Shown: one piece after another, positions 44,262-45,490 of the stretch
Layout: each line of letters opens with the position of its first letter
How positions within the stretch are numbered: the stretch's first letter is position 1
Source of the DNA: Mesotoga infera
GTDB lineage: Bacteria > Thermotogota > Thermotogae > Petrotogales > Kosmotogaceae
Length of the DNA stretch: 64,000 bases
Assembly (NCBI RefSeq): GCF_900157305.1
Contig: NZ_LS974202.1
Location: 2,232,001-2,296,000, forward strand
Reading direction: 5' to 3'
Position numbers and translations under genes: made by a program
Notes under the pieces: model-generated
What the model saw: the letters and a program-made list of their open reading frames with translations, nothing else
The model's database searches: none
Told to the model about the DNA's origin: nothing

Positions 44262-44270
44262 TGGTAGAAT
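44262..44270 (+). promoter_or_regulatory. extended -10 promoter of the asnA leader
   Basis: TGGTAGAAT (TGn followed by TAGAAT) lies 11 bases before a GGAGG ribosome site that serves the leader peptide. Transcription would begin at about 44277. No strong -35 is seen. Confidence 0.5.
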
Positions 44271-44293
44271 CTCTTAAACACGGAGGTACTTGC

Positions 44294-44365
44294 ATGGGTA
44301 GGATCATAATGAAGTTTAAGAAGTCCATACTCAATAATAATAACTGGCCGGGATCGGTCGGTTAA
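44294..44365 (+). CDS. asparagine leader peptide (attenuator)
   Basis: A 23-codon ORF with ATG at 44294 behind CGGAGG (44281-44286) and stop TAA at 44363-44365. The peptide begins MGRIIMKFKK and contains four consecutive Asn codons (AAT AAT AAT AAC, 44333-44344), followed by Trp-Pro-Gly-Ser-Val-Gly. It is followed by an intrinsic terminator (44397-44430) and then by the asparagine synthetase gene. This is the layout of ribosome-mediated attenuation of amino-acid biosynthesis operons: when charged tRNA-Asn is scarce, the ribosome stalls on the Asn run. Confidence 0.8.
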   Translation: MGRIIMKFKKSILNNNNWPGSVG

Positions 44366-44430
44366 TCTCTGCACACTTAGTAATTCAGAAGATTAAAAGG
44401 CCGATGGAAATCCATCGGCCTTATTTTTTT
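44345..44430 (+). promoter_or_regulatory. attenuator with alternative hairpins ahead of asnA
   Basis: Three mutually exclusive pairings can be drawn. Region 1 TGGCCG (44345-44350) pairs with region 2 CGGTCG (44355-44360). Region 2 ATCGGTC (44353-44359) pairs with region 3 GGCCGAT (44399-44405), which is the 5' arm of the terminator. Region 3 also pairs with region 4 to form the terminator. A ribosome stalled on the Asn codons just upstream would cover region 1, leaving 2 free to sequester 3. A ribosome at the stop codon would cover region 2, letting the terminator form. The pairings are seen by eye and not energy-calculated. Confidence 0.65.
44397..44430 (+). terminator. leader terminator of asnA
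   Basis: An 11-bp perfect stem AAGGCCGATGG / CCATCGGCCTT with an AAAT loop is followed by ATTTTTTT. It ends 16 bases before the start codon of asnA and 32-65 bases after the leader peptide stop, so it controls read-through into asnA. Confidence 0.9.
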
Positions 44431-44446
44431 AAAAGGGGTTGAAAAT

Positions 44447-45385
44447 ATGGAGAGAACGGAAAAACTCAGCGACAGGATAATGGAACACCTCAGAGACCCA
44501 TTCGTTAGAACAGCTGTCACAATCAAATCTAAAGTCATTGCAGAATCGGGAAATTTCCTGCGGGGAAAGGGATTTGTCGAGCTGCTTCCAACGATAATTT
44601 CACCGGTAACCGACCCACTCAACCACGAAGTTCACAACGCCAAATTCCGTTACTACGATCAGGAATATAAATTGATGCAATCGATGATTTTCCACAAGCA
44701 ACTGGCCTGCACTGCTTTCGACAGGATCTTCATCATTTCACCCAACGTAAGACTCGAAACATCTGAAAAGGCCACTTCGGGCAAACATCTCTTCGAGTTT
44801 ACACAGATAGACCTCGAAATGCGCGACAGCAGCAGGGAAGATGTTATGGAAGTCATGGAAGAACTAGTCGTTAGCGTCATCACTGCTGTGAAGAGAGATT
44901 GCGACCAAGCGCTGGATTATCTGGGATCCGACCCGGCCGTGCCTTCCCGACCCTTTCCAAAGGTGAAGTATCTGGATGCCTACGACCAGTACGGTAAGGA
45001 TTTCGAAACTATTCTTTCGAAATCCTTTACCGGGCCTTTCTGGTTGATAGACATTCCTATCTGGGAGAGAGAGTTTTATGATCGACTTTCGGATGATGGC
45101 AAAACCCTTGTGGATATGGATCTTATTCTCCCACTGGGCTTCGGTGAGGTTCTATCGGGAGGCGAAAGAGAGTGGGAGTACCGGAGAATAGTCAAACGGA
45201 TGGAGTTCAAGGGGAACGATCCGAAAGAATTGTCATGGTACATGGAGATCGCAGAGGACGGCGGCCTGGTACCAACGGCGGGCTGTGGTTTTGGAGTGGA
45301 GAGGTTGACGAGATACATCTGTTCCCTAGATCACGTTGCAAAAACCAGACTATTCCCCAAAGTTCCCGGCCAGAGCTGCATATGA
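44447..45385 (+). CDS. asnA: asparagine synthetase, archaeal type (AsnRS-related, class II fold)
   Basis: A 312-residue protein equal to the catalytic core of class II aspartyl/asparaginyl-tRNA synthetases without the anticodon-binding domain. Class II motif 2 is seen around LFEFTQIDLEM (about 124-134) and motif 3 in GCGFGVERLTRYI (about 280-292). Proteins of this kind, first described in archaea, make asparagine from aspartate, ATP and ammonia rather than charging tRNA. The Asn-coding leader and terminator upstream support this. A role in tRNA charging is excluded only indirectly. Its ribosome site is AAAGGGG. Confidence 0.85.
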   Translation: MERTEKLSDRIMEHLRDPFVRTAVTIKSKVIAESGNFLRGKGFVELLPTIISPVTDPLNHEVHNAKFRYYDQEYKLMQSMIFHKQLACTAFDRIFIISPNVRLETSEKATSGKHLFEFTQIDLEMRDSSREDVMEVMEELVVSVITAVKRDCDQALDYLGSDPAVPSRPFPKVKYLDAYDQYGKDFETILSKSFTGPFWLIDIPIWEREFYDRLSDDGKTLVDMDLILPLGFGEVLSGGEREWEYRRIVKRMEFKGNDPKELSWYMEIAEDGGLVPTAGCGFGVERLTRYICSLDHVAKTRLFPKVPGQSCI

Positions 45386-45413
45386 AAAAACTCCCCCGAA
45401 ATATCGGGGGAGT
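45386..45413 (-). terminator. terminator of the tRNA-Asn gene, shared with asnA
   Basis: The stem ACTCCCCCGA / TCGGGGGAGT with a four-base loop is followed by six T on the minus strand, directly downstream of the tRNA. On the plus strand it lies right after the asnA stop but has no T tract. Confidence 0.8.
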
Positions 45414-45415
45414 CC

Positions 45416-45490
45416 TGGCTCCAGCGGAGGGACTCGAACCCCCAACCGTCCGGTTAACAGCCGGATGCTCTGCCATTGAGCCACGCTGGA
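45416..45490 (-). tRNA. tRNA-Asn (anticodon GTT)
   Basis: Read on the minus strand, a complete cloverleaf is formed: acceptor stem TCCAGCG / CGCTGGA, D arm GGCTCAATGGCAGAGC, anticodon stem TCCGG / CCGGA with loop CTGTTAA (anticodon GTT), T arm GGGGGTTCGAGTCCCTC, discriminator G and encoded CCA. It converges with asnA. Confidence 0.95.

Follow-up and report, generated by a model that had tools for sequence, protein, structure and literature searches.

What controls asparagine synthesis in Mesotoga infera, where a short open reading frame (ORF) with a run of asparagine (Asn) codons stands directly ahead of the gene asnA? We studied this locus in a window of 64,000 nt of the genome (assembly GCF_900157305.1, contig NZ_LS974202.1, positions 2,232,001–2,296,000, forward strand); unless stated otherwise, coordinates are those of the window. 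The asnA gene (44447–45385, forward strand, ATG at 44447) encodes a 312-aa protein. Its initial annotation as an archaeal-type asparagine synthetase resembling asparaginyl-tRNA synthetase (AsnRS) was confirmed by matches to the NCBIfam family NF005054 (E 6.9e-113, above the family cut-off) and to PDB 3p8t, an archaeal asparagine synthetase A (E 1.5e-57). As the genome encodes an AsnRS, free asparagine is the substrate for tRNA charging, and the product of asnA therefore fits the codons of the upstream ORF. Ribosome-mediated attenuation is classical for the trp, his and leu operons, and the initial annotation had proposed this type of control for asnA.

Computation gave the following anatomy for the region, all of it on the forward strand. 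A promoter is predicted at 44242–44270, with a weak -35 element (TTTCTA, 44242–44247), a 17-nt spacer and an extended -10 element (TG at 44262–44263, TAGAAT at 44265–44270). The leader peptide ORF of 23 codons (MGRIIMKFKKSILNNNNWPGSVG, 44294–44365, stop codon UAA) was found as annotated, with its good ribosome site, the Shine-Dalgarno sequence GGAGG at 44282–44286. An internal ATG picked by the automated leader finder was rejected in favor of the start at 44294, whose ribosome site is better. The four consecutive Asn codons (AAU AAU AAU AAC) were likewise present at 44333–44344. The 11-bp intrinsic terminator (3:4, 44397–44430) has arms at 44397–44407 and 44412–44422 and a U-tract at 44424–44430; the asnA ATG lies 16 nt beyond the U-tract, again as annotated, and 24 nt beyond the stem.

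The alternative pairings drawn in the initial annotation, 1:2 and 2:3, both exist, but their extents had been set too short. Strand 1 (CUGGCCG, 44344–44350) pairs with 44355–44361. The antiterminator is formed by strand 2 on its 5' side (44353–44371) and, on its 3' side, by strand 3 with an upstream extension (44386–44405); it has 17 pairs rather than 7, in two helices (44353–44359 with 44399–44405, and 44362–44371 with 44386–44396). Its energy was -21.2 kcal/mol versus a shuffle mean of -10.6, and RNA folding showed the leader RNA to be more stable than its shuffles (z = -4.4). No short ORF of the window other than the asnA leader contains NNNN, and eight Markov-simulated windows yielded none. 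The 2.97-Mb genome contains 10 AAYAAYAAYAAY sites, of which the one at asnA alone has a leader-like setting; this search, confined to AAYAAYAAYAAY sites, identified no further Asn leaders.

The arrangement is conserved across the phylum. The asnA gene was present in 48 of 103 Thermotogota genomes, the named close relatives by protein identity being a Kosmotogaceae MAG (95%) and a Mesotoga MAG (70%). Upstream DNA was examined at 47 Thermotogota asnA loci, one of which stops at a contig edge; at all of the remaining 46, a short ORF with Asn codons is followed by an intrinsic terminator. The Asn run is thus retained in the comparison of orthologs that the initial annotation had suggested, with one run degenerate. 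The 46 leaders fall into five families with differing strand sequences, and their peptides include LNNNNWPGSVG (window), LNNNNNNNNNWPIPV (L012), KINNNNNNNSIGIGRLG (L035), VNNNNNKQRR (L051) and VNNNVNNNNTA (L033). The runs mostly comprise 2–9 Asn codons; several sister species of the window's genus have Asp-Asn-Asn only, and the degenerate case, L043, has only alternating Asp-Asn. The same device precedes asnA in two MAGs named Caldisericum. Among 37 archaeal asnA loci there were only three weak chance ORFs, none with NNNN.

At 45 of the 46 loci, no more than about 340 bp separate the start of the leader ORF from asnA. At L045 the leader ORF and the terminator both sit about 700 bp ahead of the gene, beyond DNA that looks inserted, and we rejected this locus as an exception to the rule. 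The DNA that splits them from the gene there, about 50–600 bp upstream of asnA, is apparently inserted and partly repeated.

Within the runs we counted 167 AAT and 53 AAC codons, the third base being synonymously variable, and Asn accounts for 273 of the 1163 leader codons overall, versus 65 for Lys. Together, these data indicated that the amino acid itself has been kept, and not a mere A-rich spacer. In family f1, a peptide end, (W/G)PGSV, is also conserved, as might be expected of an attenuator whose ribosome is stalled by the nascent peptide, or by a poly-Asn tract acting with another ligand, instead of by tRNA-Asn charging. However, strands 1 and 2 of the RNA code for this stretch, the ends in other families are unrelated (SIDIGRLG, QRR and VNNNNTA), the N-terminal parts are not conserved, and the Asn run alone is common to the leaders. 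We consider stalling of this kind very unlikely and favor tRNA-Asn charging as the probable signal.

The 2:3 pairing was assessed in each leader: the stretch behind the run was paired against the 5' arm of the terminator plus its upstream extension and compared with dinucleotide shuffles. In a set of 47 leaders, which includes the two Caldisericum MAGs, the pairing was better than in the shuffles (p<0.05) in 46, the exception being L043. When strands were swapped among seven groups, the pairing weakened, and throughout the matrix, by row and by column, each group paired best with its own terminator. In alignment A3, 89.4% of the 2:3 cells were paired and seven pairs had changed on both sides; the percentage paired was reached by 0 of 500 shuffles and the covariation score by 1 of 500. 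For the A3 terminator (3:4) and for 2:3 in alignment A5, neither measure was reached in 500 shuffles. In family f7, 2:3 was 93.8% paired and conserved, with no covariation. As alignment shuffles ignore relatedness, we relied chiefly on how the families differ from one another, and across families the antiterminator of the initial annotation is kept with compensatory changes. Leader L043, which has Asp-Asn-Asp-Asn in place of the run and no significant 2:3 pairing, is possibly a decaying attenuator.

No element of the device is weaker than the 1:2 hairpin. In family f1, the pairing of strand 1 had 95% of cells paired and modest covariation, with a score reached by 29 of 500 shuffles. Its counterpart in family f7 (alignment A4) covaries, with 0 of 500 shuffles reaching the percentage paired or the covariation score. 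In family f2 the decoy for strand 2 lies downstream (2:2') and not upstream; strand 2 begins within a few bases of the run there, and in several species the stop codon is directly behind or inside strand 2. In L033 (1309–1385), a strand farther downstream, UUAUUGACGUUGUUAUU, has 17 bases of complementarity to the Asn codons, AAUAACAACGUCAAUAA, and so the regulatory codons of this family belong to strand 1.

To follow the effect of the ribosome, each leader was folded as it would be just after strand 3 emerges, with the RNA masked as far as 13 nt beyond the A-site codon's first base, this downstream footprint being an assumption of the folds. The outcome was dependent on position. Strand 3 was more than half sequestered by upstream RNA in 46 of 47 leaders when the ribosome stood on the first Asn codon (median 0.82). 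This number fell to 19 with the ribosome on the last Asn codon, and to 5 with it on the stop codon (median 0.12). Based on these folds, an early stall would give read-through and finished translation would give termination. Once strand 4 is out, the terminator is favored at equilibrium in nearly all states (median 0.96–0.98), and the switch must consequently be kinetic, its outcome set by timing. The equilibrium folds with no ribosome had the antiterminator in 39 of 47 leaders, so that the 1:2 protector looks weak in the model and untranslated RNA might read through.

The stability of the terminator at equilibrium in every state is also what a constitutive partial terminator behind an unrelated small gene would show, with the alternative pairing having no regulatory role. 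The shuffle, swap and covariation results on 2:3 argue against such a terminator, as does the strict order of Asn run, strand 2, terminator and asnA in five families, and we regard it as even less probable than stalling by the nascent peptide. Least probable of all is direct sensing of asparagine or uncharged tRNA-Asn by a metabolite riboswitch or T-box, with the ORF incidental: T-boxes do such sensing for many amino-acid genes in Firmicutes, but a scan of the leader against Rfam gave no match at E<=1 (no known leader RNA, T-box or riboswitch), and no feature is more constant than the Asn run, whose end lies at a narrow distance of 39–63 nt from the terminator, which leaves little room for an aptamer.

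We therefore favor, with a probability of roughly 90%, a ribosome-mediated transcription attenuator of the trp/his type that senses tRNA-Asn charging and has the AsnRS-like asnA as its target. In such a device, RNA polymerase would transcribe the leader with a ribosome following on the leader ORF. When Asn-tRNA is scarce, the ribosome would stall near the beginning of the Asn run, where it covers strand 1 and leaves strand 2 free to pair with strand 3 as the antiterminator (in the window, 17 bp); formation of the terminator would then come too late, asnA would be transcribed and asparagine made. When Asn-tRNA is plentiful, the ribosome would continue to the stop codon, which lies within strand 2 or shortly after it, and cover that strand, allowing 3:4 to pair and transcription to end before asnA. 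The anatomy, the conservation across the phylum, the compensatory changes and the dependence of folding on ribosome position come from computation; we infer translation of the leader, its coupling to transcription, the stalling and the response to asparagine. The interpretation in the initial annotation is strongly supported by this comparison, and Thermotogota with asnA very probably turn on asparagine synthesis when ribosomes stall for want of charged tRNA-Asn.

In 42 of 47 loci, sequence prediction placed promoter-like sites ahead of the leader ORF, consistent with a transcription start before the terminator; most have a TG-extended -10 element, and the -35 element is a perfect TTGACA in most loci of families f7 and f2. 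The tRNA-Asn gene annotated after asnA is present (anticodon GUU, 45416–45490), but it is on the minus strand, convergent with asnA, and is adjacent to it in the window's genus only. The orientation and the restricted occurrence excluded it as part of the unit, and we judge it to be outside the device and probably an incidental neighbour. Farther along on the minus strand, a DUF1667 gene (45547–45918) adjoins an FAD/NAD oxidoreductase gene (45915–47153), and there is a further oxidoreductase-like ORF at 47147–48667.

The M. infera genome also encodes an AsnB-like protein of 475 aa, and asnA may thus not be the sole source of asparagine in this species. This protein (G000:C1:969462–970889; L202, 163–1590) begins MSAIVIF, without the Cys2 of glutamine-dependent AsnB. 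The AsnB-like family had no match in some of the asnA-bearing relatives (e.g., G001 and G016).

Outside Thermotogota, leader-like ORFs with Asn codons were observed with other RNA structures. In Aminicenantia, 19 of 20 asnA loci have a short ORF ending NNVPF or similar, the twentieth being a partial gene without a leader row. These leaders have a conserved GUCCCC/GGGGAC hairpin directly after the ORF, mostly without a U-tract, and are perhaps under Rho-dependent or translational control. In the same loci (L142–L160), the hairpin is followed by a CU-rich, G-poor stretch ahead of asnA, and several leader start codons seem very close to the -10 box, possibly making these mRNAs leaderless. In Bipolaricaulota and related genomes (L162–L191), leader-like ORFs ending PANNAPYGA or NPNAPFGANN precede asnA; their Asn codons are few yet recurrent, and many of the loci, not all, have a GCCCC/GGGGC hairpin. 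We tentatively suggest, as a possibility that we would not rate as high as even, that control of AsnRS-like asnA by Asn-codon leaders recurs in three or more bacterial phyla and is read out by RNA in different ways: by the terminator in Thermotogota and the Caldisericum MAGs and, in Aminicenantia and Bipolaricaulota, by the conserved hairpin (GUCCCC/GGGGAC or GCCCC/GGGGC) that mostly lacks a U-tract. The second readout is perhaps Rho-dependent or translational. If this suggestion is correct, the regulatory logic would be more conserved than the RNA executing it.

We found no Asn-codon attenuator in the open literature, and an earlier prediction is possible in the 2010 work of Lopatovskaya, Seliverstov and Lyubetsky, which is reportedly a survey of attenuation in bacteria. 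The mechanism is classical and not new; it is the asparagine/asnA case for which the open literature searched gave no precedent. The device resembles the trp, his, leu, ilv, thr and phe attenuators of Proteobacteria in having a short ORF with cognate codons, strands 1–4 with mutually exclusive antiterminator and terminator, and a biosynthetic gene downstream. It differs from them in its signal (Asn), its target (an asparagine synthetase that is a paralog of AsnRS) and its phylum, and in family f2 a further difference is that strand 2 has its competing hairpin on the downstream side (2:2') and not upstream. Beyond Proteobacteria, the same mechanism is represented by actinobacterial leader peptides and, in Bacilli, by the His leaders of hisS and hisZ, with other amino acids and other genes (PMC1262725; PMC2965389). 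The second of these papers stated that, before its own cases, none had been demonstrated beyond Proteobacteria and Actinobacteria, and it mentions neither asparagine, asnA nor Thermotogota (PMC2965389). The motif uORFC-8-2 ahead of cysS in Rhodobacterales, which has a run of regulatory codons in an upstream ORF, is similar in that the run precedes a gene affecting the charging of the same tRNA; it differs from the asnA device in its amino acid (Cys), its aminoacyl-tRNA synthetase target, and its unrelated sequence and phylum (PMC8632094).

If the attenuator reading is true, classical attenuation gains asparagine as a further amino acid that it senses, and the mechanism would be phylum-wide in Thermotogota, where it is undescribed in the literature examined, in several versions of the switch that are independent in sequence. 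The set of asnA leaders provides comparative data for the evolution of attenuators. The findings suggest that the small ORFs before asnA in Thermotogota genomes are regulators, and they make a direct prediction on how asparagine supply would be controlled in Mesotoga and its relatives, some of which are without asnB.
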